This document shows positions 5,303 through 54,048 of a stretch of DNA of 64,000 nt, piece by piece. Position 1 is the first letter of the stretch; every line of letters begins with the position of its first letter. The DNA is from Aquimarina pacifica (lineage in GTDB: Bacteria; Bacteroidota; Bacteroidia; Flavobacteriales; Flavobacteriaceae). The notes beneath the pieces were generated by a model, which saw only the letters and a list, made by a program, of their open reading frames with translations, had not been told where the DNA came from and searched no databases. The DNA is taken from NCBI RefSeq assembly GCF_000520955.1, contig NZ_JACC01000006.1, forward strand, positions 62,001-126,000, in the 5' to 3' direction. Made by a program: the position numbers and the translations under genes.

Positions 5303-5566
5303 ACGGGGCTTTTAAAATTCTTGTAGGTTTGGGGTAACAATATATTCTGAGTAGAATAATCAAAAGAGTATTTAGACTAATCTATTCTTGCTGCAAAATT
5401 AGGATAATACCCAGATCAACAAAAGACTAGGGGGGTTGCAAAAGGGTTGCAACCTACTAATTACGGGATATAAACCCGTTTAATTCACATATCCTTTTTT
5501 GCATTGAAAACTTATTTTAAAAGTTAAAGCTAAAGACAGAAGTTGTGTTTTACGGATCCTTTTGGG
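5303..5566. other. Intergenic region with two inverted repeats
   Basis: No gene seen. Inverted repeat GTTGCAA-AAGGG-TTGCAAC lies at 5435-5453, and a weak stem ACGGG/CCCGT at 5463-5479. Both lie between the stop of the LuxR-type regulator and the start of the giant surface protein, so they could be an operator or an mRNA structure of the latter. No T tract supports termination. Confidence 0.4.
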
Positions 5567-16753: not shown

Positions 16754-17440
16754 TTATAACCTGTACGCCGCATCAAAAGGCTTATTTATAATCTCAAAAA
16801 ATTCTTTTCTAGTATCAGCTTCAACAAATTTGCCTCTATATTCGATGGTAGTAGTAAAACTGCTTTTATCCTTAATCCCTCTAGAGGAAACACATAAATG
16901 TTTAGCCTGTATTACCACAATAACATCTTCAGTTCCTAAAGTTTCTTGTAAGTCTTCCAAAATTTGCAGACATAATCTTTCTTGTACCTGAGGACGATGT
17001 GCATAATAATCAACTAGTCTATTGATTTTTGATAAACCAATCACTTTACCTTCGGGAATGTATCCTATATGAGCAGTCCCAACAATTGGTAAGAAATGAT
17101 GCTCACAAGAGGAATCAACATTAATGTTTTGCTCAACTAGGATTTTTTGATATTTGTATTTATTCTCAAAAGTAGAAGTTCTGGGACGATTTTTGGGATC
17201 TAAACCATAAAAGAGTTCCTTTACATACATTTTGGCAAACCTGTATGGAGTTCCTGAAAGACTATCATCTGTTAAATCAAGTCCTAATTCCTTCATTATT
17301 TCTGCAAAGTGATGTTGTATGTTTTTAATCTTTTCGGTATCAGATGTATCAAAAGCATCTACACGCAAAGGTGTTTCTGTCGAATTAGAAATGTGCGAAT
17401 CTCCAATTTGTTCTATTTCATTTTGATTTTTGGTACTCAT
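16754..17440 (-). CDS. folE: GTP cyclohydrolase I (type IA)
   Basis: Converts GTP to dihydroneopterin triphosphate, the first step to tetrahydrofolate and pterins, in the cytoplasm. The 228 residues have normal length. Zinc ligands are visible in SSCEHHFLPIVG (Cys and His) and in KHLCVSSRGI (second Cys); GLSKINRLVDYYAHRPQVQERL is the family signature. This is the zinc-dependent class. Its place between MerC and a hydrolase behind a Zur-like box suggests an extra copy made under zinc limitation, when the enzyme would be short of metal; whether another folE exists cannot be seen here. Confidence 0.95.
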   Translation of the reverse strand: MSTKNQNEIEQIGDSHISNSTETPLRVDAFDTSDTEKIKNIQHHFAEIMKELGLDLTDDSLSGTPYRFAKMYVKELFYGLDPKNRPRTSTFENKYKYQKILVEQNINVDSSCEHHFLPIVGTAHIGYIPEGKVIGLSKINRLVDYYAHRPQVQERLCLQILEDLQETLGTEDVIVVIQAKHLCVSSRGIKDKSSFTTTIEYRGKFVEADTRKEFFEIINKPFDAAYRL

Positions 17441-17446
17441 GATAAA

Positions 17447-17851
17447 TTAATTTACACAACATTTTTCACCTTTACAGTGACAGTTTCTTTTATTATAAAA
17501 ATGTAACCCCACTAATAATATAGATACTACATAAATAGCTTCTTCAGGAAAATAGAATATTGATAATTTTTCATTAATTACAATCAATAACAACGATAAC
17601 CAAGCAAACCAAAAAGCGTATTTTATTCTTGTGCTTATGGTGGTTTTTGTAGATCGATAAATAGCTATAAAAGAAAGTCCCAAGAAAATAAAATCCAGTG
17701 ATTTCCACCAAACAGAATATCCACCTTCAAATAAGGCGGGCCCAGTATGCGCTAGAAATAAAAAAGGAGTTGCTATGCAATGTACTAAACATAAACTACT
17801 AGCTATTATACCTAATGTATCTGAGTTACTGCGAATGTCTAAAATGTTCAA
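17447..17851 (-). CDS. MerC domain membrane protein
   Basis: Small inner membrane protein with four membrane segments and the MerC signature SLCLVHCIATPF (two Cys). The C-terminus is Cys/His-rich (NCHCKGEKCC). MerC carries mercury or other metal ions; zinc or an undefined metal is likely here from the context. The frame is open up to an ATG at 17893, but a good -7 box (TATCTTTG, 17887-17880) lies inside that extension, so I choose the TTG at 17851. It leaves ten residues before SDTLG, as in relatives. FolE follows six bases after the stop. Confidence 0.75.
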   Translation of the reverse strand: MNILDIRSNSDTLGIIASSLCLVHCIATPFLFLAHTGPALFEGGYSVWWKSLDFIFLGLSFIAIYRSTKTTISTRIKYAFWFAWLSLLLIVINEKLSIFYFPEEAIYVVSILLVGLHFYNKRNCHCKGEKCCVN

Positions 17852-17879
17852 AATAAAAGTATCTGTATTTAATATCGGC

Positions 17880-17941
17880 CAAAGATAGTACATATTTTAC
17901 AAATGCAACTTTGTTGCTTTAGTAATATTTATTTATTTTTG
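17880..17941. promoter_or_regulatory. Divergent promoters sharing one Zur-like box
   Basis: The palindrome GCAACTTTGTTGC (17905-17917) supplies the -33 TTG of two promoters. Minus strand: TTG, 18 bases, TATCTTTG (17887-17880), towards MerC-FolE. Plus strand: TTG (17914-17916), 17 bases, TATTTTTG (17934-17941), towards the ABC operon. A repressor bound here would shut both. The same 18 bases TGCAACTTTGTTGCTTTA recur on the minus strand at 26163-26146. Confidence 0.75.
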
Positions 17942-17955
17942 ACAAAAATCAATTT

Positions 17956-18588
17956 ATGATCCGAACGACATCGTTAAGGTTTACCTATCAAAATACAAGA
18001 GCCCATACTTTTGATTTTCCGGATATAGATTTGTCACCAGAACAAAATGCCTTAATTCTGGGTCCTTCTGGTATTGGCAAGACCACTTTATTGCATCTTA
18101 TGGCAGGTTTATTAACTCCCAAAAAAGGGAATGTGTTTATCGATAATACTTGTATACAAAAACTTACAAGAAGTCAACTGGATAATTTTAGAGGAGAACA
18201 TATTGGACTAATTTTTCAAAGAGCATATTTCATTAAGTCATTAACATTATTAGAAAACCTGAGAATGCGGGAGAAACTCTCCAAAAAAACAACCGATCCA
18301 CTCAGAAGAAAACGATTAATAGAACAATTAGAGTTAACCGAAGTTAGGAACAAAAAGGTACATGAATTAAGTGAAGGTCAGCGGCAACGTCTTTCGGTTG
18401 CTCTCGGGATTATACATAAACCCACAGTTATACTAGCAGATGAACCTACCTCTAATTTGGATGATGAGCGTTGTGCAAGAGTCATTTCATTATTAAAAAA
18501 AGAGGCTCAAATTTGTAAAAGTAATTTGGTTATGATCACCCATGACCAAAGAGTTAAATCGCATTTCCAAAAACACATAATTCTATAA
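17956..18588 (+). CDS. ABC transporter ATPase, LolD/MacB type
   Basis: A 210-residue ATP-binding subunit. Walker A GPSGIGKTT (about 36-44), Q-loop LIFQRAYF, signature LSEGQRQRLS (about 138-147), Walker B VILADEPTSNLD (about 156-167) and H-loop MITHD are all present. The permease gene starts two bases after the stop. With the next two genes it forms an exporter or membrane-extraction unit of the LolCDE/MacB class. Its promoter shares a Zur-like box with MerC-FolE, so a role in zinc supply is inferred. Confidence 0.92.
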   Translation: MIRTTSLRFTYQNTRAHTFDFPDIDLSPEQNALILGPSGIGKTTLLHLMAGLLTPKKGNVFIDNTCIQKLTRSQLDNFRGEHIGLIFQRAYFIKSLTLLENLRMREKLSKKTTDPLRRKRLIEQLELTEVRNKKVHELSEGQRQRLSVALGIIHKPTVILADEPTSNLDDERCARVISLLKKEAQICKSNLVMITHDQRVKSHFQKHIIL

Positions 18589-18590
18589 AA

Positions 18591-19784
18591 TTGTTATACT
18601 TAGCTTTCAAAAACATCATTTCAAAGCCTTTGGATACTATCCTTAGTATCTTGCTTTTAACGCTAAGCATTTTGTTGGCTACTTTTGTTTTACAAATAAA
18701 CAAACAACTTAACCATCATCTAGAGACAAACAGTAAACCATTTGATATGGTAATTGGTGCAAAAGGCAGTCCATTACAACTTGTCTTATCTTCTATCTTA
18801 CATATTGACAATCCTACTGGAAATATATCATTAAACGAAGTCTTGAAAATTGGAAAAAACCCTTTGGTCAAAGAAATTATACCTGTTTCTTATGGAGATA
18901 ATTACAAAGGATATAGAATTTTAGGCACATCGCATTCGTATTTGGCAGCCTATGACGCAACTTTACAAGAAGGAGAAATCTATAATAAACCCTTCGAGGC
19001 AGTTGTAGGAAATTATGCAGCAAAAAAACTTAACTTACAAACGGGGCATACTTTTGAAAGTTCTCATGGTTTGACCAAAAATGGATTAGAAACCCACAAT
19101 GAAAAGCCATTTAAAGTAACCGGCATATTGAAACCCACTGGGTCGATTATTGACCATTTGATCATTACCAATCTAGAAAGTATTTGGCATGTACACGAGC
19201 ATCATGAGGAGCATACTCATCTCGAAGAAAAAGATGAGCAACGAGAAATCACCTCTTTACTGGTAAAATTTAGAAATCCTATTGCGGCATTACAACTTTC
19301 TAGGTTTATCAATAAAAAGACTACAATGCAAGCGGCATTTCCTAAATTTGAAATTGAACGATTAATGGGGTTTTTAGGAATTGGTTTTCGAGCAATTAAT
19401 AGCATTGCTATTGTCATACTTTTGGCAGCAGGACTCAATATTTTTATTAATCTCATAAAAACCATAAGAGAACGAAAACAAGAGTTGGCTCTTTTGCGCA
19501 CTTATGGAGCAAATACATTTCAATTGGTTAAACTGGTCTTTATCGAATCACTCTTCTTGTCTTTATTTGGAACCATTTTAGGGTGGTTTTTAGGAAGAAT
19601 AAGCATCTGGTTTTTCTCAGTTTTTACTGAAGATGCATATGGATATCATTTTGTATTTGATGCTCCTACTAGCAAAGAATTATTGCTAGTAGGAGCGGTA
19701 GTTTTAACTACTTTTATTGCTGCAATTTTGGCTTCACTATCTATTTTTAAATTAAACGTTTCTAAAATATTAGCAGATGCATAA
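18591..19784 (+). CDS. FtsX-like ABC permease with His-rich loop
   Basis: A 397-residue permease of the MacB/FtsX class. One membrane segment lies near 17-37, then a large periplasmic domain, then three segments (about 265-290, 312-335, 365-390) with the FtsX part KTIRERKQELALLRTYGA. A periplasmic loop near 198-215 is His/Glu-rich (WHVHEHHEEHTHLEEK) and could bind zinc. The start is TTG at 18591, two bases after the ATPase. It overlaps the next gene by 8 bases. Similar ABC/FtsX/DUF3299 sets are zinc-linked in proteobacteria. Confidence 0.88.
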   Translation: MLYLAFKNIISKPLDTILSILLLTLSILLATFVLQINKQLNHHLETNSKPFDMVIGAKGSPLQLVLSSILHIDNPTGNISLNEVLKIGKNPLVKEIIPVSYGDNYKGYRILGTSHSYLAAYDATLQEGEIYNKPFEAVVGNYAAKKLNLQTGHTFESSHGLTKNGLETHNEKPFKVTGILKPTGSIIDHLIITNLESIWHVHEHHEEHTHLEEKDEQREITSLLVKFRNPIAALQLSRFINKKTTMQAAFPKFEIERLMGFLGIGFRAINSIAIVILLAAGLNIFINLIKTIRERKQELALLRTYGANTFQLVKLVFIESLFLSLFGTILGWFLGRISIWFFSVFTEDAYGYHFVFDAPTSKELLLVGAVVLTTFIAAILASLSIFKLNVSKILADA

Positions 19785-20220
19785 ACTAATTTTTCTTTTT
19801 GCGGCATGTATGTGGAGTCCATCAACTCTTTTTTCTCAACAACAATTAACCTGGAATGATTTCGCTGATGTTCGTTTTCATGATATCTATAGCGAAAAAT
19901 ATGATGACTATTTCTTAAAACCAACATTCGGAACAATCATAAATTCTTTTGAAGGGTCCAGCGTTAGTATTAAGGGATATTTTTTAGATTTTTCTTCAAA
20001 AGAAGGCTCTTTTTATATGGTCTCTAGAAACCCTATGTCCTCTTGTTTTTTCTGCGGAGGCGCAGGTCCTGAAACTATTGTAGAAGTCATTTTTAAAAAC
20101 AAACCAAACTATAAAACAGATCAGGTAGTAGAAATTACAGGAATACTAGAGCTAAATGCAGAAGATGTAGATCACTGTAATTATATAGTAAAAGAAGCTA
20201 CAGCAAGTTTGGTACAGTAA
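19777..20220 (+). CDS. DUF3299-like exported protein
   Basis: A 147-residue protein with a signal peptide (1-20, ending TLFSQ). The pattern of a short strand-rich domain with SVSIKGYFLDFSSKEGSFYMVSR, then CFFCGGAGPE near 87-96, then VVEITGILEL resembles DUF3299, whose members accompany ABC exporters. The CFFCGG motif and His residues could hold a metal. Overlap with the permease gene shows a common transcript and probably linked function. Confidence 0.75.
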   Translation: MHKLIFLFAACMWSPSTLFSQQQLTWNDFADVRFHDIYSEKYDDYFLKPTFGTIINSFEGSSVSIKGYFLDFSSKEGSFYMVSRNPMSSCFFCGGAGPETIVEVIFKNKPNYKTDQVVEITGILELNAEDVDHCNYIVKEATASLVQ

Positions 20221-20273
20221 ATTAAAATTATACATTAGCTGTAAGAGAAATGACTCATCAATTTTCACAATAC

Positions 20274-21068
20274 ATGAATAAAATAACATATCATAATTGC
20301 CGCGCACAAAACATAATCCGTAACAGTTTCTTTTTACTTATTATGATCCTCGCTTTCTCTTCTTGTAAGAAAAAAGAGTATCTGGTAAAAGTAGAGGGAG
20401 CACGAATTAAAATCAATGATACTATTCCTGATAATTCTGATGTAGAAGCTTTTATAAAACCATATAGGGCACACGTAAATAAGACTTTAGATAGTGCATT
20501 GGCTTATGCACCAGAGACCTATTCTAAAAATGATGGAACCCTGAACACCGCAATAGGCAACTTAATGGCCGATATTGTTTTGGAGCAAGCCAATCCTTTT
20601 TTTATATCAAAGACCAAAAATGCGATTGATATGGTATTATTGAATCATGGTGGCATACGGGCACCTATACCAAAAGGTACTATTACGGCACGTACCGCCT
20701 ACCAAATAATGCCTTTTGAGAATAGTATTGTTGTTGTTGAAATGAAAGGCACTCATATCAGGAAACTGATTACCTATTTACAAAAATCTCGAAAAGCCCA
20801 CCCTATTTCAGGATTAAAATTGACTATTGATAAAAATTTTGATAGTGTAAAAGCCCTGATCAATAATAAAGAAATTAATGATGAGAAAACCTATTTTGTC
20901 GCAACTAATGATTACTTGTATCACGGTGGTAGCGAGATGTATTTTTTTGAGCAAGCTGGCAAAGCTCATAAATTAAATTATAAAATTCGAAATGCCATGA
21001 TCGACTACTTCAAAAAAGCAGATACGATCGCACCGAAAATTGATGATAGATTTTTACAAACCAACTAA
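20274..21068 (+). CDS. 5'-nucleotidase C-terminal domain lipoprotein
   Basis: Holds only the C-terminal (substrate-binding) domain of a UshA-type 5'-nucleotidase: NTAIGNLMADIVLEQA, LLNHGGIRAPIPKGTIT and NSIVVVEMKGTHIRKL are family marks. A lipobox (LAFSSC) lies about 32 residues after the chosen ATG at 20274; an ATG at 20250 adds eight residues. The catalytic metallophosphatase half is the next gene, 12 bases on. The two products probably act together in the periplasm on nucleotides or nucleotide sugars. Confidence 0.85.
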   Translation: MNKITYHNCRAQNIIRNSFFLLIMILAFSSCKKKEYLVKVEGARIKINDTIPDNSDVEAFIKPYRAHVNKTLDSALAYAPETYSKNDGTLNTAIGNLMADIVLEQANPFFISKTKNAIDMVLLNHGGIRAPIPKGTITARTAYQIMPFENSIVVVEMKGTHIRKLITYLQKSRKAHPISGLKLTIDKNFDSVKALINNKEINDEKTYFVATNDYLYHGGSEMYFFEQAGKAHKLNYKIRNAMIDYFKKADTIAPKIDDRFLQTN

Positions 21069-21080
21069 ATAAACAAGGAA

Positions 21081-21995
21081 ATGAAACGAAGAGAATTTGT
21101 AAAACAATCAGCATTAACAGCAGGCTTACTAACAATTGGCGGAGCTAGTCTATCATCTTTTTCTACAGGTAAAACAAAAAAAATAACAATCTTACATACC
21201 AATGATGTACATAGCCACATAGATGCATTCGGTCCCAATGATGGTAAAAATTCGAATAAAGGAGGTGTGGCAAGAAGAGCTACAATAATAGAAAACATAA
21301 GAAAAGAGAACCCAAACACACTGTTACTAGATGCAGGAGATATTTTTCAGGGAACCCCATATTTTAATTTTTATGGTGGTGAACTAGAATTCAAGTTGAT
21401 GAGCATGCTTAAATATGATGTGGCTACTATCGGTAATCATGATTTTGATAATGGAATTGAAGGGTTGCACGCGCAACTACCTTATGCAAAATTTAAATTT
21501 GTCTCTGCTAACTATGATTTTACCAATACCGTTATGGATACGTTTGTTAAACCCTATGAAATATTCATCAAAGACAACATTAAGATAGGAATATTTGGCC
21601 TTGGGATTGCTCTAGAAGGATTAGTCATGAAAGATCTATATAAGGAGACGAGGTATCTTAATCCTATAGAAATTGCTCAGGACATGAGTAACCTATTAAA
21701 AAATGAGGAAAAATGTGATTTGGTAATATGCTTATCCCATTTGGGATATGATTACAAAAATGAACCGAATAAAGTAAATGATTTAAGTCTTGCAGGAGCT
21801 ACAGAAAATATTGATCTTATTATTGGGGGACACACGCACACCTTTCTTGAAGAACCAACTATAGTAAAGAATAGGAAAGGCAATAATGTCCTTGTGAACC
21901 AGGTTGGGTGCTACGGTTTGTATCTAGGTAGAATAGATTTTTATTTTGATAGCCAAAAAAATAAAACTTCGTATGGACGTGCTACGTCAATATAA
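21081..21995 (+). CDS. 5'-nucleotidase metallophosphatase domain, Tat signal
   Basis: Catalytic half of a UshA-like 5'-nucleotidase, 304 residues. The N-terminus MKRREFVKQS plus a hydrophobic stretch is a twin-arginine signal. Metal-binding motifs of the calcineurin fold are complete: HTNDVHSH, DAGDIFQGTP, IGNHDFD, LSHLG and GGHTHTF. The partner domain is the preceding lipoprotein gene. Tat export fits loading of metal before transport. The pair lies at the end of the run of plus-strand genes that starts with the ABC operon. Confidence 0.9.
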   Translation: MKRREFVKQSALTAGLLTIGGASLSSFSTGKTKKITILHTNDVHSHIDAFGPNDGKNSNKGGVARRATIIENIRKENPNTLLLDAGDIFQGTPYFNFYGGELEFKLMSMLKYDVATIGNHDFDNGIEGLHAQLPYAKFKFVSANYDFTNTVMDTFVKPYEIFIKDNIKIGIFGLGIALEGLVMKDLYKETRYLNPIEIAQDMSNLLKNEEKCDLVICLSHLGYDYKNEPNKVNDLSLAGATENIDLIIGGHTHTFLEEPTIVKNRKGNNVLVNQVGCYGLYLGRIDFYFDSQKNKTSYGRATSI

Positions 21996-25546: not shown

Positions 25547-25876
25547 TTATACAGTAAAACCATATCCGATCTTTGCCGGTGGAGGTTTGTTATGAATACT
25601 TTTAGGAAGTGTAATGCTATACCCCCCTGTTTCATAAAAGAAATCAGTTCGATGGTCTTGAGTATCTAATACAGTTTCTTGTACTAGTGCTACAGGTGTA
25701 TTACTAGCAAAAGGAACAATTTTATGTGATATCGTTATAATATCACATAATTCACAATGTATTTGCTCATCATCATTAGAAAAATGGGAAAAAGCATGAA
25801 GGTTAACAATTCTAAGAAGTAGAAAAGTTAAAACGAAAAAAAGAGAAATTATATTTTTATACGTGTTTCTTCCCAT
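25547..25876 (-). CDS. Small Cys/His-containing exported or anchored protein
   Basis: A 109-residue protein. One hydrophobic segment (about 8-27) is followed by HAFSHF....QIHCELCDI, a His/CxxC cluster near 29-46. The rest has no known domain; the C-terminus is Pro/Lys-rich. It resembles in layout the 102-residue protein at 54176-54484, which also has a signal segment and a CELC cluster, though the sequences otherwise differ. A role as metal sensor or binding protein is inferred from the context. Confidence 0.6.
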   Translation of the reverse strand: MGRNTYKNIISLFFVLTFLLLRIVNLHAFSHFSNDDEQIHCELCDIITISHKIVPFASNTPVALVQETVLDTQDHRTDFFYETGGYSITLPKSIHNKPPPAKIGYGFTV

Positions 25877-26145: not shown

Positions 26146-26163
26146 TAAAGCAACAAAGTTGCA
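26146..26163. promoter_or_regulatory. Zur-like box, second copy
   Basis: Palindrome GCAACAAAGTTGC at 26150-26162. On the minus strand it reads TGCAACTTTGTTGCTTTA, identical over 18 bases to 17904-17921. On the minus strand a weak -7 (TACATTGA, 26135-26128) lies 18 bases after a TTG in the box, facing the small Cys/His gene 250 bases away. The box is too far (97 bases) from the S8 protease -7 box to act there directly. Confidence 0.6.
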
Positions 26164-26259
26164 ATTAATTATTGTTTAAAACAAAAATTCCCTCTTAATT
26201 TTTGTCTTTCAGTAATTTACCATACGGTTTTCCCATACCATTTATTTTTTTAGAATTTA

Positions 26260-26267
26260 TACTTTTG
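26260..26267 (+). promoter_or_regulatory. Putative -7 box of the S8 protease gene
   Basis: TACTTTTG matches TAnnTTTG and lies 25 bases before the ATG at 26292. No TTG stands at -33. It supports the downstream start codon, since the frame extension back to 26202 would lie mostly upstream of transcription. The remaining 25877-26145 stretch holds no gene that I recognise. Confidence 0.5.
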
Positions 26268-26291
26268 AGACTAACACAAACTTTAACTCAA

Positions 26292-27560
26292 ATGAAAAAA
26301 TTTAGTAAACTAGCTGTGGGTACTTTATTCACGGCACTGGCAATTACTTCTTGTCAGAATGAGAAAATTTCTGACGGAGTGGTAGAACCTGTTGTAGAAC
26401 CTACAAGTGCCGAAGGGAACATTATTCCTGGACAGTACATTGTCGTTTTCAAAAACTCAAAAATTGAACCTTCCTCTAAAATCCTAGAGAAATCTTCATT
26501 CTCAAGTAGAACCGCAAAGTCCAAATCGGTTAGAGATATTTCTGAAGCTTCTATTCAGAAAATGAATACCGTGTTATCTGATAATAATTTAGATCAATCT
26601 AAGGTTCTAAATTACTATACTACAAAGATTTCTGGTATTACCATTACATTAGGTGATGATGAATTTGAAAAATTATCCAAAGACCCTAATGTAGCTGCTA
26701 TTGAATTTGATCGCGTTGTAGAATTGCCAAAATTTGAAGTCGAACAAGTTATTTCTGATGATCAATCTCAAAAAATGACGCAACAAACTCCATGTGGAAT
26801 TTCTCTTGCCGGAGGTGCCACAAATGGTTCTGGTAAAGACACCTGGATTTGGGTAATTGACACAGGGATTGATTTGGACCATCCTGATCTTAATGTAATT
26901 ACAGATTCTAGATACGCACAATCATTTGTTGGGGGATCTGCTAACGATTGTAACGGACATGGAACTCATGTTGCCGGTACCGCTGCTGCTATTAACAATA
27001 GTGTCGGTGTTGTTGGGGTTTCTGCCGGTGCCAGTGTGGTGCCAGTGAGAGTTTTTGGATGTAGTGGTGGGACTACTGCTTCTGCAATACTTTCAGGAAT
27101 TAATCACGTTGGCCAGTACGATCTTCCTGGTGATACAGTCAACCTAAGCTTAGGAGGATTCTTTGGTTCTGGATGCTCAACTAACTCCTCGTACCGTAGT
27201 TCATTATTATCCTTAGCAAACTCAGGAACATTGGTTGCGATTGCCGCCGGTAATAGTAGCGCTAATGCAGCAAATTATCAACCTGCCTGTGTTAATGGAA
27301 CAAATATCTATACCGTGGCATCAATGACATGCAATGGAGGCTTTTCGTCTTTTTCAAACTATAATATGAACCCTATTGATGTAATTGCTACAGGAAGTAG
27401 TGTAACAAGTACTTATTTGAATGGAGGATATGCCACACTAAGTGGGACCTCTATGGCCTCTCCTCATGTTGCAGGAATTATGCATGCTAGAGGAAGTGGA
27501 CCTGCAACTTCTGGATCCATAAGCAACAGAGGAGAAAATTACCCAATAGCAGTAAGATAA
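26292..27560 (+). CDS. Exported S8 (subtilisin) serine protease
   Basis: A secreted protease of 422 residues from ATG 26292. A signal/lipobox-like stretch (TALAITSC) is followed by an inhibitor I9 propeptide (about 45-130, PGQYIVVFK...) and the peptidase S8 domain. The catalytic triad is visible: Asp in WVIDTGID, His in GHGTHVAG, Ser in GTSMASPHVAG. Extra Cys (FGCSGG, GSGCSTNS, ACVNG) suggest disulfides, as in proteinase K relatives. It lacks a T9SS tail, so it probably stays as a lipoprotein or periplasmic enzyme. Stand-alone gene with its own terminator. Confidence 0.92.
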   Translation: MKKFSKLAVGTLFTALAITSCQNEKISDGVVEPVVEPTSAEGNIIPGQYIVVFKNSKIEPSSKILEKSSFSSRTAKSKSVRDISEASIQKMNTVLSDNNLDQSKVLNYYTTKISGITITLGDDEFEKLSKDPNVAAIEFDRVVELPKFEVEQVISDDQSQKMTQQTPCGISLAGGATNGSGKDTWIWVIDTGIDLDHPDLNVITDSRYAQSFVGGSANDCNGHGTHVAGTAAAINNSVGVVGVSAGASVVPVRVFGCSGGTTASAILSGINHVGQYDLPGDTVNLSLGGFFGSGCSTNSSYRSSLLSLANSGTLVAIAAGNSSANAANYQPACVNGTNIYTVASMTCNGGFSSFSNYNMNPIDVIATGSSVTSTYLNGGYATLSGTSMASPHVAGIMHARGSGPATSGSISNRGENYPIAVR

Positions 27561-27633: not shown

Positions 27634-28020
27634 TTATTTTTTGCATTTATTGCAAATACCGATAACCAAAAACTGTGTTTCCTGAATCGTAAACCCTTCC
27701 AAATTAGGGATATGTAGTGTATTGGGTTGACACGTTACTTCTTGGCATACTTGGCATTCAAAATGAATATGATTATGAATTTTATGCGATACACTACAGC
27801 CATCACAAAGCGCATAATATGCTTTGCCATTTTTACCCGTTATAAAATGAACTTCTCCTTTTTCTGCAAATCGATCTAAAATCCTATATATCGTTGTTTT
27901 GTTTACTTTTATGGGCATGGCATCCATAATGGCTTCTGCAGACATGGTATGCTCGCTTTTAGATAAGATTTCTTTGACGAGATTTTGTTTTTCGGTATTC
28001 CGGCTTTTTTTGATTTCCAT
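27634..28020 (-). CDS. zur: Fur family repressor, Zur-like
   Basis: A metal-responsive repressor of 128 residues from ATG 28020; an upstream ATG at 28035 adds five residues. Winged HTH at about 10-80 (KVNKTTIYRILDRFAEKGEVH), then the metal part with HNHIHFECQVC (regulatory His plus CxxC) and C-terminal CNKC, the structural Zn(Cys)4 site. Fur subtypes cannot be split with certainty by eye; zinc is favoured because COG0523, folE and MerC genes with a shared palindrome lie within 10 kb. Start site region has no visible copy of that palindrome. Confidence 0.8.
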   Translation of the reverse strand: MEIKKSRNTEKQNLVKEILSKSEHTMSAEAIMDAMPIKVNKTTIYRILDRFAEKGEVHFITGKNGKAYYALCDGCSVSHKIHNHIHFECQVCQEVTCQPNTLHIPNLEGFTIQETQFLVIGICNKCKK

Positions 28021-48072: not shown

Positions 48073-48486
48073 TTAAGTACTGCATTTCTCGCAAATTCCC
48101 TTTAACACTAAATTGGCATCTTCAGCCACATAGCCTTCTGGCAAATTAATATTTGGAATTTTATGTTCGGTAAGACAAACGGTCTCATTACAATTATTGC
48201 AATGAAAATGTAAATGCAAATCCTGTTCGAGTTCACAATTGCATCCTGTTTCACAGAGCGCATATTTTTGAACGCCCGTACCATCATCTATTTGGTGCAC
48301 TACACCTTTCTGTTCAAAAGTTTTTAGGGTTCTGAATAACGTTGTTCTATCTGCTTTCGCAAAAGCGTTCTCAATATCCGTGAGGGCAATGGCAACTTCG
48401 CTTTCAGCCATATATTTATAAATCAAAATACGCATTGCCGTTGGGCGAACGCCATTTTCCGTAAGTCTTTGTTCTATTTCTTTCAT
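48073..48486 (-). CDS. Fur family regulator in the metal island
   Basis: A 137-residue Fur protein. HTH DRTTLFRTLKTFEQKGVVH (about 47-65), metal part with CETGCNCELEQDLHLHFHCNNC and C-terminal CEKC. The extra Cys (CETGCNCE) are unusual and may form a second metal site. It differs clearly from the Fur/Zur protein at 27634. It sits between the CusB-type gene (17-base gap) and the Zn/Cd pump, so sensing zinc or cadmium is likely. Confidence 0.85.
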   Translation of the reverse strand: MKEIEQRLTENGVRPTAMRILIYKYMAESEVAIALTDIENAFAKADRTTLFRTLKTFEQKGVVHQIDDGTGVQKYALCETGCNCELEQDLHLHFHCNNCNETVCLTEHKIPNINLPEGYVAEDANLVLKGICEKCST

Positions 48487-48502: not shown

Positions 48503-49705
48503 TCAATGTCCGTGTTCTTCAGATTCACCTTTTTTCATTTCTGCCATTAAATAGTAAGCATTGTTAAATGCGTATTCTACATTTGATTTTTGTTCTGTTA
48601 GAAAGTCAATGGCAATCCATTCTCCATCTTGAGTACTCTTTATAACTTCATAAGGCATAAAAGCCCAATTATCACCTTCCTTTTCAGCTGAAAACACAAA
48701 GAACCTGTTGCCATCAGCAGCTATGGCACTCTCGGGCATTGCCAATGTTTTAGTGTTGTCAGTTTGAATGCGTCCCTGGATATACATTCCGGGAATCAGG
48801 TTCCCTTCCTTATTTTCAATTTCAGCGTGTACATGTATTGCTTTTGGATTCTGTTCAAAAGTCTTTCCTACGGAATAGATTTCTGCGGTAAGTTCCTTGC
48901 CAGGAATGGATTGAACATTGAAAGTGATTTTCTGCCCTTCCTTAACCTTATATACGTCCTTTTCAAAAACCATTAAATCTGCGTGCACGTGATGCGTATC
49001 TACAATTTCCATTAGGTCGGTCTGGGGTTCTACATATTGGCCTGTTTTAATTTCTACCTTTTGTACAAAGCCTTCAATAGGACTTCTAAGTGCTACCCGC
49101 TGATAAATTGTTCCGTTTCTTACGCCTGAGGCACTAATGCTCAGCTGTTTTAGTTGAGCTTCCAATCCGTTAGCCATACTTCGGGATGCTTGATATTCGG
49201 CTTCTGCCTTTTGAAAATTTGCACCGCTGCCAACACCTGCTTCGTACAGGGTTTTTTGCCGTTCATATTCCTTATTGAGAAACTGGCTATTACTATAGGC
49301 GTTGAGGTAATCCGTCTGTTTTTGAATGATATTGGGGTGTGATAGATAGGCAACTGTTTGCCCTTTATTGACCTTATCGCCTTCGATAACCTCAATGGAA
49401 ACTACATTAGCACCAACCACCGTAGTTATAGTAGCTTCGTTTTGTGGTGGGACTTCCAACTGACCATTGGCTTTCACGTACCCACTCATATTTCGCATTG
49501 GTAAGGTATCGATTTGTATTTGTAATGCATTAAACTGCTTTTCTGTCAATAGCACTTCCTCGGCCTCACCTTCGGAATGCTCTTCTTTCATTTCAGAATC
49601 TGTCTCTTTATTTTCTGCGGCACTACTTTTCGAATCGCCACAAGAGGCAAAGCCTAAAAGCATTGTCAGTAGTCCTATAATTGTGTATTTAGATAGATTT
49701 TTCAT
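48503..49705 (-). CDS. RND periplasmic adaptor, CusB/CzcB type
   Basis: A 400-residue lipoprotein (lipobox GFASC) that links the RND pump to the outer membrane. A Glu-rich, His-containing segment (about 33-50) is followed by the barrel-sandwich and alpha-hairpin parts (EVIEGDKVNKGQTVAYLSHPNI, QKTLYEAGVGSGANFQKAEAEY) and the beta-barrel (PGKELTAEIYSVG, LIPGMYIQGRI). The C-terminus ends in EEHGH. One base overlaps the pump gene. It forms a tripartite metal exporter with the CusA-TolC fusion. Confidence 0.92.
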   Translation of the reverse strand: MKNLSKYTIIGLLTMLLGFASCGDSKSSAAENKETDSEMKEEHSEGEAEEVLLTEKQFNALQIQIDTLPMRNMSGYVKANGQLEVPPQNEATITTVVGANVVSIEVIEGDKVNKGQTVAYLSHPNIIQKQTDYLNAYSNSQFLNKEYERQKTLYEAGVGSGANFQKAEAEYQASRSMANGLEAQLKQLSISASGVRNGTIYQRVALRSPIEGFVQKVEIKTGQYVEPQTDLMEIVDTHHVHADLMVFEKDVYKVKEGQKITFNVQSIPGKELTAEIYSVGKTFEQNPKAIHVHAEIENKEGNLIPGMYIQGRIQTDNTKTLAMPESAIAADGNRFFVFSAEKEGDNWAFMPYEVIKSTQDGEWIAIDFLTEQKSNVEYAFNNAYYLMAEMKKGESEEHGH

Positions 49706-52700
49706 TATTGTTTGAAATATTGTAGTTCAAAAACTGATTTTAGGTAATTGTCGAGAGCGGCCAGCGCATCCATTTCGGTCTGTATGGCGTCCCTTATGAT
49801 TTGAGTGAAAGCTGCGTAATCAACTGCACCTTCTCTATAAGCTAATAACGCGCCCCGTCTTTGCTCTCCGGCAAGTGGCAACGCTTTATCTTTATAAAAT
49901 TGCCAAGATACTTTCCACTTTTGATAGGCTTGTACGGCTTGTCGATATTCTGATTGCAATTGGCGTTTTACAAAGTCCGCATTAGTCTTGGCAATTTCAC
50001 TGTCTATTTTAGCGGCCTTGGCTTGACTTCGTTTTGTTCCAGAGAATAGGGGAACAGATATTCCTGCTTGATAAGTGTAAAACCCGTTGCTTCCATTTAC
50101 TTGTTGTAATCCGCCTTGAAGATTTAGATTTGGTAACAAATCAGAACGAGCAGCTTTATAGCCAGCTTCGGCTTCGTCGATTCGCTTTTGTGAAAGTTCC
50201 AGTTCGGGATGATTCTTTATACTTGCGGATATTCCCAATACAGCAACTTCACTTTCGTCCAGTGTGTCGGGAACGGTGTAAAAAGTATCGGAAACCAACC
50301 AAAGGTTAAGCTTTTGCAGCGCAATGGCATAGTCGCTCTCGGCCTGTTGCAGTTTATTATTGATTTGCAACGCCTGATTGGTTGCAGATGAATATTCCAA
50401 TCTTGAAATAGCCTCTACCTTATAATTGAGTTCGATTGCTTTTTCAAACTGTGAATAGATAGAATCCAGTTCACGGTAGAGTATAAATTTCTGTCTTTGT
50501 TGGTACGCTTGAGACCACGCCTTTTTCACTTCCTGTTCCACTTGCAGTCCAGAAAGGTTGAGCGCAGTTTCTGCCAATGCAATTCGCTTTTGCTGTAAAC
50601 GCTTCTTTGCACCAATACCAAATAGATTGATATTCTGCTGACCTACACCCACTAAAGTGTAAATACCTTGACCATCGTTTACTTCCTCACCGCCTGTAAA
50701 AACTTGGGTGTTCCCTAAGTCATACGCTGTGCCTTTAAGGGCGTTCTGTTTTTGAATTTCCAACTGTTTTGTTTTCAATAGCGGATAATTTTTCTTTGCA
50801 ATTTCCACTGCTTGTTTAAACGAGATAGCAGGTATTGCATCACTATCTTGAACTTGTTGCGCATTGGCGAAAGCCGAAGTAAGTAGTAAGCACAACATCG
50901 CTGTTGCGGTTACGAATTTAGGATTGAGCTTCGTCTTACGTTCAGAACGCTTTTCTACCCATTGATAAAAAATTGGAAGGATAAAAAGGGTCAATAATGT
51001 TGAAGTAATTAATCCACCTATAACAACAGTCGCCAATGGTCGCTGTACTTCAGCTCCTGCAGATGCAGAAACGGCCATAGGCAAAAAACCAAGTATATCG
51101 GTAAAGGCCGTGAGCATAATAGGCCGTACTCTTCTTTTTGTTCCCTCTACAATACGTTCTTTGAGATCGGTAACACCTTCCTCTTTCAACTCGTTCAGTC
51201 CACTAATCATCACCAAACCATTCAGTACAGCAACACCGAATAATACGATAAAGCCGACACCCGCGGAAATGCTAAATGGCATATCCCTAAGCCATAGGGC
51301 AAAAACACCACCGATAGTAGCCATCGGTATAGCCAAATAAATCATCAAGGTTTGTGGAAAAGATTTTAATGCAAAGTAAATCAGGATGAATATTAGCAAT
51401 AATGCAATAGGAACAACGGTCTGCAATCGGTCACTTGCCCTTTCTAGATTCTCGAATGCACCTCCATAGCGTATAAAATACCCTGGTGGTAAATCAAGAT
51501 TTGCATCCAGTTTATCCTTTATCTCATTGACTAATGATTCTACATCCCGTCCACGGACATTTACACCCACATAGGTTCTACGATTGGTATTATCCCGGCT
51601 TATCTGCATCGGTCCTGGTGTGTATTCGATATTTGCCAATTCTTGAAGTGGAATTTGTGAACCGTTTGGTAAATTGATGTATAGATTTCTGATGTCGTTG
51701 ATATCTGTACGGTTCTGCTCATCGAGTCTAACGACCAAATCGAAACGCTTTTCGCCCTCAAAGATGACACCCGCATAACCCCCTGCAAAAGCAGATTGGA
51801 CTATCATATTGAGTTGGTCAATGCTCACACCGTATTGCGCTAGTTTATCGCGATTGTACTTTATGGTCATTTGAGGTAATCCCGAAGTAGCTTCCGCCCT
51901 CATATCGCCTATACCATTAGTGCCAGCTATGATTTTGGTAATCTCATCCGCTTTGGCAGCAAGTACATCAATATCCTCACCATATATTTTAATAGCAACA
52001 TCCTCGCGTATGCCTTCCAAAAGTTCATTAAACCTCATTTCAATAGGTTGGGTAAACTCATAATTGACACCTGGGATAATGCTTACCACTTCCTTCATCT
52101 TATCTATAAGTTCATCCTTTGAATCAGCTGACACCCATTCGTCCTGTGGTTTCAGTATAACGAATACATCTGCAAAGTCCATCGGCATCGGGTCAGTTGG
52201 TACTTCAGCCACACCGATACGACTCACAATTTTTTCCACTTCAGGAAATTCAGCCTTTACAATGCGTTCTACTTTAGTAGTTGTCTCAATGGTTTCGCTG
52301 AGCGAACTACCGGGTTTAAGGATGGCGTGGAAGGCAATATCACCCTCATCCAATTGTGGGATAAACTCGCCGCCCATTTTAGAAAATACAAATACGGCTA
52401 CAGCGAATATGGCAACTGCAATACCCACAACCCACTTTCCTTTTTTCAAGGCTCGCATTAAAAGGGGTTCATACTTATGTTGTACCCATTGCACAAAACG
52501 GTCGCCCCAAGATTTTTTTTCCGTTTTGGGTGGTTTTAAAAATAAGGCTGACATCATAGGCACATAGGTTAGACACAGAATCATTGCCCCCATCATCGCA
52601 AATATGAATGTTAATGCCATTGGCTGGAACATCTTTCCTTCTACACCTTCCAATGCTAAAATGGGAAGGAATACAATTAGGATTATCAACTGGCCGAAAA

Positions 52701-54048
52701 AAGCAGCATTCATCATCTTTTTGGATGCATCGGCAGCGATTACGTCTCGGTCTTCCTTTTTTAAAGCTTTCTTTTTAAATATATAACTACCCATAAGAAA
52801 TACGCTTGCTTCCACAATGATAACCGCGCCATCGACAATGATTCCGAAGTCGATTGCCCCTAAACTCATTAGGTTTGCCCAGACGTTAAAAACATTCATA
52901 AGTATAAAAGCGAATAATAAGGATAGCGGTATAGTAGAAGCTACAATCAATCCACCACGCCAGTTACCTAGCAAAAAAACCAAAACAAAAATTACGATGA
53001 GTGCACCTTCCAGTAGATTGTTGCGCACTGTACCAGTAGTTTCGTTTATAAGCTTACTTCTATCCAATAAAGGTTGAATGACAACCCCTTCAGGTAAAGA
53101 TTTCTGTATTTCGGTCATTCTTTCCTTCACTCGGACAATGACCTCATTTGAGTTTGCACCTTTAAGCATCATTACCAATCCACCAACGACTTCACCTTCA
53201 CCATCCTGTGTCAATGCTCCATAGCGTACGGCAGAACCAAAACGTACATCGGCAACATCACTTACGGTTATTGGTATACCATTTTCATTTTTGATAATGA
53301 TTTTTTTAATGTCATCAAGGTTGCGTACCAAACCTTCGCCACGGATAAAGTTGGCTTGGTGATTTTTTTCGATATAAGCACCACCTGTATTTTTATTGTT
53401 GGCTTCCAAGGCTTCAAAAACATCAGTAATGGCAAGACCGATAGCCTTTAGCTCATTGGGGTCTACGGCTACCTCATACTGTTTTATTTTTCCGCCAATG
53501 GCATTGATTTCAACAACCCCTGGAACCATTGCCATTTGTCTTTGAACAATCCAGTCTTGCATCGTACGTAAATCGGACAAAGAATATTTATCCTGAAACT
53601 CAGGTTCAACTTTCAGGGTATATTGATATACTTCGCCCAAGCCTGTTGAAATAGGTCCCATAGACGGTTGCCCTAGTTCTTCGGGTATCTGCTCACGAAC
53701 TTCAGTCAGTTTTTCGGAAACAAGCTGACGTGGTAGATACGTTCCCATATCATCATCAAATACCACCGTAACCACGGAAAGTCCAAATCGTGAAATCGAG
53801 CGGATTTCCTTTACATTGGGCAGATTGCTCATAGCAACTTCTATTGGATAGGTAACGAATTGCTCGATATCCTCTGTACCCAGATTGGGCGATTGTGTGA
53901 TGACTTGCACCTGATTATTAGTAATATCTGGTACGGCGTCAATAGGAACTTGAGTCATACTATAGATACCTGCACCGATGAGTGCCAAGGTTAGCAGACC
54001 AATTATAAATTTGTTATTGATTGAAAAATCAATGATTTTGTTAATCAT
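49705..54048 (-). CDS. CusA/CzcA RND pump fused to TolC-type channel
   Basis: A 1447-residue fusion. Residues 1-1035 form a heavy-metal RND pump: N-terminal TM helix, PDITNNQVQVITQSP, TM4 proton residue in DFGIIVDGAVIIVE, and a C-terminal run of helices. At about 1041-1063 a signal-peptide-like stretch ends AFANAQ, and residues 1075-1440 form an outer membrane efflux protein (ISFKQAVEIAKKNYPLL, YKAARSDLLPNLNLQGGLQQV). Cleavage there would release the channel. CzcA against CusA cannot be settled by eye. The sequence is visibly less AT-rich than the chromosome core. Confidence 0.92.
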   Translation of the reverse strand: MINKIIDFSINNKFIIGLLTLALIGAGIYSMTQVPIDAVPDITNNQVQVITQSPNLGTEDIEQFVTYPIEVAMSNLPNVKEIRSISRFGLSVVTVVFDDDMGTYLPRQLVSEKLTEVREQIPEELGQPSMGPISTGLGEVYQYTLKVEPEFQDKYSLSDLRTMQDWIVQRQMAMVPGVVEINAIGGKIKQYEVAVDPNELKAIGLAITDVFEALEANNKNTGGAYIEKNHQANFIRGEGLVRNLDDIKKIIIKNENGIPITVSDVADVRFGSAVRYGALTQDGEGEVVGGLVMMLKGANSNEVIVRVKERMTEIQKSLPEGVVIQPLLDRSKLINETTGTVRNNLLEGALIVIFVLVFLLGNWRGGLIVASTIPLSLLFAFILMNVFNVWANLMSLGAIDFGIIVDGAVIIVEASVFLMGSYIFKKKALKKEDRDVIAADASKKMMNAAFFGQLIILIVFLPILALEGVEGKMFQPMALTFIFAMMGAMILCLTYVPMMSALFLKPPKTEKKSWGDRFVQWVQHKYEPLLMRALKKGKWVVGIAVAIFAVAVFVFSKMGGEFIPQLDEGDIAFHAILKPGSSLSETIETTTKVERIVKAEFPEVEKIVSRIGVAEVPTDPMPMDFADVFVILKPQDEWVSADSKDELIDKMKEVVSIIPGVNYEFTQPIEMRFNELLEGIREDVAIKIYGEDIDVLAAKADEITKIIAGTNGIGDMRAEATSGLPQMTIKYNRDKLAQYGVSIDQLNMIVQSAFAGGYAGVIFEGEKRFDLVVRLDEQNRTDINDIRNLYINLPNGSQIPLQELANIEYTPGPMQISRDNTNRRTYVGVNVRGRDVESLVNEIKDKLDANLDLPPGYFIRYGGAFENLERASDRLQTVVPIALLLIFILIYFALKSFPQTLMIYLAIPMATIGGVFALWLRDMPFSISAGVGFIVLFGVAVLNGLVMISGLNELKEEGVTDLKERIVEGTKRRVRPIMLTAFTDILGFLPMAVSASAGAEVQRPLATVVIGGLITSTLLTLFILPIFYQWVEKRSERKTKLNPKFVTATAMLCLLLTSAFANAQQVQDSDAIPAISFKQAVEIAKKNYPLLKTKQLEIQKQNALKGTAYDLGNTQVFTGGEEVNDGQGIYTLVGVGQQNINLFGIGAKKRLQQKRIALAETALNLSGLQVEQEVKKAWSQAYQQRQKFILYRELDSIYSQFEKAIELNYKVEAISRLEYSSATNQALQINNKLQQAESDYAIALQKLNLWLVSDTFYTVPDTLDESEVAVLGISASIKNHPELELSQKRIDEAEAGYKAARSDLLPNLNLQGGLQQVNGSNGFYTYQAGISVPLFSGTKRSQAKAAKIDSEIAKTNADFVKRQLQSEYRQAVQAYQKWKVSWQFYKDKALPLAGEQRRGALLAYREGAVDYAAFTQIIRDAIQTEMDALAALDNYLKSVFELQYFKQ

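Follow-up and report, generated by a model that had tools for sequence, protein, structure and literature searches.

A predicted Zur operator shared by the divergent promoters of merC-folE and an ABC/FtsX operon in Aquimarina pacifica

A predicted Zur box, ATGCAACNNNGTTGCAT, has been described before znuABC-zur in two Desulfovibrio genomes (Rodionov 2004, PMC545781), and boxes of the 7-1-7 type are known for Zur proteins (PMC6103462). PA4064/PA4065 of Pseudomonas aeruginosa are Zur-regulated and have been interpreted as a MacB-type pump that exports pyochelin-cobalt (PMC11481552), and the related ZrgABCDE system of Vibrio was described as a zinc transporter (PMC9817125). In Flavobacterium psychrophilum, TAnnTTTG at -12 to -5 was mapped as the sigma-A -7 box (PMC9723704).

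Here, we analyzed a stretch of 64,000 nucleotides from A. pacifica (the window), in which the palindrome GCAACTTTGTTGC (17905-17917) separates minus-strand merC from a plus-strand ABC ATPase gene. The system resembles the Desulfovibrio Zur_D regulon in having the same palindrome ATGCAACNNNGTTGCAT and in that the regulated locus itself carries the gene for a Fur-family regulator. It differs in its targets, which are znuABC-zur in the two deltaproteobacteria but merC, folE, cobW, TonB receptors and others here, and in the placement of Bacteroidota promoter elements inside the operator; the two were compared at the level of the box. Of the 12 inner positions of the Desulfovibrio-type box, the window's 15-mer TGCAACTTTGTTGCT matches all but one, and a further box at 54509-54523 matches all 12. 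Like PA4063-PA4066 and ZrgABCDE, the ABC operon has homologous separate genes for an ATPase and a MacB-like permease, a third gene for a small secreted protein and, as predicted here, Zur control. Unlike in those systems, the third gene is unrelated by sequence, no DUF2796 protein was seen among the genes read in the operon, and one operator joins the transporter with merC-folE.

We conclude that 17904-17918 very probably serves as operator for a Fur-family repressor that senses zinc (Zur). The likeliest candidate is the protein encoded at 27634-28020, one dimer of which would block both operons. This reading draws on motif identity, the adjacency of regulator and box in other genomes, the closeness of one paralog to the box-linked regulators, structural similarity and zinc-related targets; from these sequence data we infer binding, zinc as the metal, and repression.

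Operator and divergent promoters

The features of the intergenic region and the two operons are as follows.

17904-17918, strand not applicable: predicted Zur operator TGCAACTTTGTTGCT around the core palindrome at 17905-17917, called from conservation and the Desulfovibrio motif
17880-17887, minus strand: -7 box TATCTTTG for merC-folE, 18 bases from its -33 TTG (17908-17906)
17934-17941, plus strand: -7 box TATTTTTG for the ABC operon, 17 bases from its -33 TTG (17914-17916)
17447-17851, minus strand: merC-family membrane protein (PF03203, 9e-18), probable TTG start at 17851
16754-17440, minus strand: folE, GTP cyclohydrolase I (PF01227; NF006824 above cut-off)
17956-18588, plus strand: ABC ATPase, PA4064 homolog (PF00005)
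18591-19784, plus strand: FtsX/MacB-like permease, PA4065 homolog (PF02687, PF12704)
19777-20220, plus strand: secreted OB-fold protein at the DUF3299/PA4066 position, with no Pfam match
20250-21995, plus strand: genes for a 5'-nucleotidase C-terminal domain and a metallophosphatase (PF02872, PF00149)

The 15-mer TGCAACTTTGTTGCT differs from TGCAACNNNGTTGCA by one mismatch, and in Bacteroidota the full motif is TGCAAC-N3-GTTGCA. An earlier note on this DNA had claimed that the palindrome supplies the -33 TTG of both promoters, and the sequence at 17880-17941 confirmed this: the minus strand reads exactly TTG-N18-TATCTTTG and the plus strand exactly TTG-N17-TATTTTTG, each taking its TTG from one palindrome arm. 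From the mapped position of TAnnTTTG, transcription is predicted to start near 17946 on the plus strand, 10 nt upstream of the ABC ATPase ATG, and near 17875 on the minus strand. A sigma-70 scan of the region returned nothing useful, as expected for Bacteroidota. In the mechanism that we propose, zinc-loaded Zur dimers would bind the 7-1-7 palindrome TGCAACNNNGTTGCA, each half-site of which holds the -33 TTG of one of two back-to-back sigma-A promoters. A single bound dimer would bar RNA polymerase from both merC-folE and the ABC-FtsX-OB-fold-nucleotidase operon; when zinc drops, Zur would leave and both operons would be made.

The merC start is probably the TTG at 17851, as orthologs carry an in-frame stop ahead of that residue; the ATG at 17893 was rejected, being upstream of the predicted transcription start and not conserved. 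The folE product keeps the CEHH and C ligands, so it is predicted to be a zinc-type enzyme. The genome holds four folE genes, that of the window and three on contigs C13 and C15 (L183, L184 and L185), with the zinc ligands kept in all; the C13 copy in L184 is followed by a cysS-like gene.

The ABC ATPase shares 30% identity with its P. aeruginosa counterpart (E 3e-33) and the permease 25% over its full length with PA4065 (E 2e-45), matching the pair that lies between the DUF2796 and DUF3299 genes of P. aeruginosa (PA4064-PA4065). The permease has a His-rich loop, HVHEHHEEHTH. The "ABC exporter" of the earlier note thus stands as to its ABC/FtsX identity, and export is half settled, the relatives having been read as an exporter (PMC11481552) and as a zinc transporter (PMC9817125). 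The homology with Zur-regulated PA4064-PA4065, together with a Catenovulum plasmid on which a merC gene adjoins the same transporter type, indicates that the transporter is a predicted part of zinc starvation. Its third gene, which had been called DUF3299-like, gave no DUF3299 match in sequence searches and no Pfam hit, so that the name found no support at the sequence level; a weak DUF1980_C match was noted (best E 0.03). The model of its product does resemble PA4066 (4hsp; Z 9.4 over 105 residues), a score with which general OB folds tie. The gene pair at 20250-21995 probably belongs to the operon, and the same order of nucleotidase and metallophosphatase genes was seen in two further loci (L040, L042). 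In the window the two domains are encoded by separate adjacent genes, the 5'-nucleotidase C-terminal domain gene first.

Candidate regulator and its linkage to the box

Two Fur-family genes are encoded in the window.

27634-28020, minus strand: Zur-type Fur protein, best candidate repressor (PF01475; two CxxC pairs)
48073-48486, minus strand: second Fur paralog, within a DUF6660-RND operon (PF01475; 71.9 bits to the profile of merC-linked Fur proteins)

In the 27634-28020 protein the pairs C89/C92 and C123/C126, which would form the structural Cys4 zinc site, are invariant across 16 sequences, and C72, C75, H84, H86 and C97 are also conserved. The AlphaFold model (mean pLDDT 83) has a Fur fold with a winged helix and a dimerisation domain. 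Compared with the PDB, it retrieved six Zur chains first (M. tuberculosis, Synechococcus, S. coelicolor) and then Fur and PerR, so that Zur structures ranked above Fur, PerR and Mur. By profile, the best matches were S. coelicolor Zur (3mwm, 7vo0), with M. tuberculosis Zur (2o03) and E. coli Zur (4mtd) near the top. The S. coelicolor and M. tuberculosis (FurB/Zur) proteins are thus its best matches by both profile and structure and share the paired CxxC motifs, but identity is only about 20-24%, and the A. pacifica protein has the extra C72, C75 and C97 near the expected sensor region. Against the NCBIfam Zur model NF008646 (PRK11639) it scored 26.2 bits, far below the cut-off of 167, and other Fur-family models did no better; because NF008646 is a strict equivalog model, this low score limits the name "Zur equivalog" and not a Zur-like function. 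To our knowledge, no sequence feature assigns the metal of a Fur-family protein with certainty.

The linkage of regulator and box was observed well beyond this species. Divergent merC and Fur-family genes that enclose the box are found in Maribacter, Kriegella, Croceivirga, Meridianimaribacter and lineages further away, an arrangement seen in many Flavobacteriales and beyond. To avoid circularity, loci were also fetched by the Fur profile alone. In all 10 of these the box lay at most 70 bp upstream of the fur start, nearly always starting at -27 to -29 from it and mostly at -28, with at most one mismatch in nine and two in the tenth. Across 392 Bacteroidota genomes, with the regulator called at a Fur-profile E of 1e-12 or better, genomes with the regulator averaged 0.88 boxes (control pattern 0.03) and genomes without it 0.20 (control pattern 0.10); the profile was built mostly from merC-locus seeds, and the genomes are related rather than phylogenetically independent. 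Among the boxes listed from genomes with the regulator, 16 of 64 lay within 4 kb of such a fur gene, where 0.14 were expected.

These data also bear on which paralog reads the box. It is unlikely, though worth keeping in view, that another Fur paralog (48073-48486 or one on other contigs) does so, alone or together with 27634-28020. The 48073-48486 gene belongs to the operon headed by the window's third box, and Fur proteins less close to the profile (about 62-85 bits) likewise occur about 0.8 kb from a box in other families. However, the 27634-28020 protein scores 108.8 bits to the profile of merC-linked Fur proteins against 64-73 (maximum 73.2) for the other paralogs of this genome, which places it 36 bits closer to the regulators linked to the box, and it alone among the five paralogs compared keeps the recognition-helix sequence NKTTIYR[IV]LD. 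This scoring used only merC-linked Fur proteins as the profile and covered five of the six paralogs, the sixth being a Fur-like protein on contig C34. The 27634-28020 protein is therefore retained as the most likely repressor. Its closeness to the box-linked regulators, its structural match to Zur and the zinc-related targets together support the zinc and Zur interpretation of the earlier note, which had also named 27634-28020 as a Zur-like protein.

Other boxes and predicted targets

Two further boxes lie in the window.

26149-26163, strand not applicable: second predicted Zur box AGCAACAAAGTTGCA, kept beside both flanking genes in L031, L081 and L113
54509-54523, strand not applicable: third predicted Zur box TGCAACTGTGTTGCA, ahead of a minus-strand DUF6660/RND efflux/fur operon

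The second box is flanked by a small Cys/His ORF (25547-25876, minus strand) and a subtilase gene (26202-27560, plus strand), and a fourth box in the genome precedes a PhoX-moaB-COG0523 operon. In relatives, boxes are followed by merC, folE, fur, cobW, moaB and TonB receptor genes, and by genes for LCIB-type carbonic anhydrase, PhoX, DUF4625 lipoproteins, cysS and a lanthipeptide dehydratase. For the window's own cobW, the closest NCBI model is ZigA, with 563 bits just below the cut-off of 600. Some boxes precede genes without an obvious zinc link, namely subtilases and the RND efflux operon.

That the regulator responds to a metal other than zinc (cobalt, copper, iron or manganese), or to an excess of metal instead of zinc shortage, appears improbable. 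An RND efflux operon does stand behind one box, the PA4065 pump has been tied to cobalt-pyochelin, and MerC takes its name from mercury. Set against this, COG0523/ZigA-like proteins, folE, carbonic anhydrase, PhoX, cysS and TonB receptors form a zinc-starvation target set, the box motif is identical to the znuABC-zur box, and Zur structures outrank those of Fur, PerR and Mur for the 27634-28020 model. Zinc shortage thus remains the preferred signal for the predicted repressor.

Two further arrangements were noted. A 1447-aa ORF of the window (49705-54048) fuses an AcrB-type RND pump to an outer-membrane efflux protein domain (PF00873 and PF02321). In L092 (2991-9059) and L094, a box is flanked by a Fur gene and a gene for a lanthipeptide dehydratase (PF04738 and PF14028), and another box precedes a 65-aa precursor-like peptide.

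Conservation, paired boxes and wider meaning

The genome-wide search for GCAAC-N3-GTTGC proposed in the earlier note returned four exact sites in 5.26 Mb against two for the reversed control. Three of the four are in the window (17905, 26150 and 54510, inside 37 kb). Sites with one mismatch on contigs C2, C3, C11 and C41 and at window position 5437 were taken as chance, because they had no convincing target genes and the motif occurred nine times against four for the control.

In the organism's own genome, the motif count alone is near chance; conservation in relatives carries the case. Summed over 63 Aquimarina genomes, the 15-mer TGCAACNNNGTTGCA occurs 91 times against nine for the control. 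The box lies 64-73 nt ahead of the same merC residue in all 30 Aquimarina merC loci fetched, with at most one mismatch in 24 and at most two in 29, and its half-sites are 99% identical against 74% and 65% for the flanks. The -7 boxes are phased with it: among the first 24 Aquimarina loci examined, 23 have an exact TAnnTTTG at N17-18 on the merC side (0.11 expected from shuffled flanks), and 21 have one at N16-17 on the opposite side (0.30 expected). In one of the three loci without the second -7 box (L127), the divergent neighbour is a subtilase remnant in place of the ABC operon. With the box in place and both -7 boxes phased in relatives, the earlier proposal that one repressor acts at this box on both promoters gains support at the sequence level. 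That the palindrome is an incidental inverted repeat without a regulator can practically be discarded, since the near-chance count in its own genome is outweighed by the conservation across the 30 merC loci, the phasing, the enrichment in the genus and the presence of the box in every regulator-seeded locus.

Two operator layouts recur: the single box of the window, serving both -33 elements, and the merC/fur layout of other genera, in which boxes are often paired. Of 36 box pairs within 80 bp, 24 were spaced at 38 bp and eight at 39 bp (for example, L045 at 5924 and 5962). In many pairs the first box contributes the TTG, and TAnnTTTG at N18-20 is completed by the TG of the second box, so the spacing of the pair appears to be set by the promoter; it corresponds to the distance from -33 to -7 with the overlap added.

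In several relatives, paired boxes were observed ahead of a 36-aa peptide gene with a double-glycine leader and a Cys/His core (..NPVGG-THCSNCGHCSSTL). It is followed by 159-aa and 306-aa genes of no assigned family, a TonB receptor, a weakly DUF4374-like protein, an ABC ATPase and two ABC-2 permeases. Such loci occur in L198 (6100-17059), L197 (325-7516 and 8669-13100), L028, L035, L037, L082, L083, L088, L091 and L096, and genome G030 has a divergent ABC/HlyD/TolC-type exporter at the peptide locus. No copy of the 306-aa gene was found in the genome of the window. A zinc-scavenging peptide system is a possible reading of these loci.

In the open literature, which here means outside subscription papers and RegPrecise, we found no prior description of a Zur box for Bacteroidota; what appears new is a predicted Zur regulon in this phylum, with MerC as a core target and operators inside promoter elements. 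More broadly, we see an even chance that Bacteroidota have their own Zur regulon with the operator in the promoter core, a single box covering the -33 elements of two divergent promoters and pairs at 38-39 bp covering the -33 and the end of the -7 element at a spacing set by the sigma factor. MerC would then be a signature zinc-starvation gene, and some relatives would add the double-glycine-leader Cys/His peptide with an exporter and a TonB receptor, possibly as a zincophore. The locus offers a clean divergent promoter for testing repressor action on TTG/TAnnTTTG promoters. For the phylum, the motif would provide a direct route to listing zinc-starvation genes, and the meaning of MerC-family and MacB-like genes would shift from mercury and drug resistance towards zinc.
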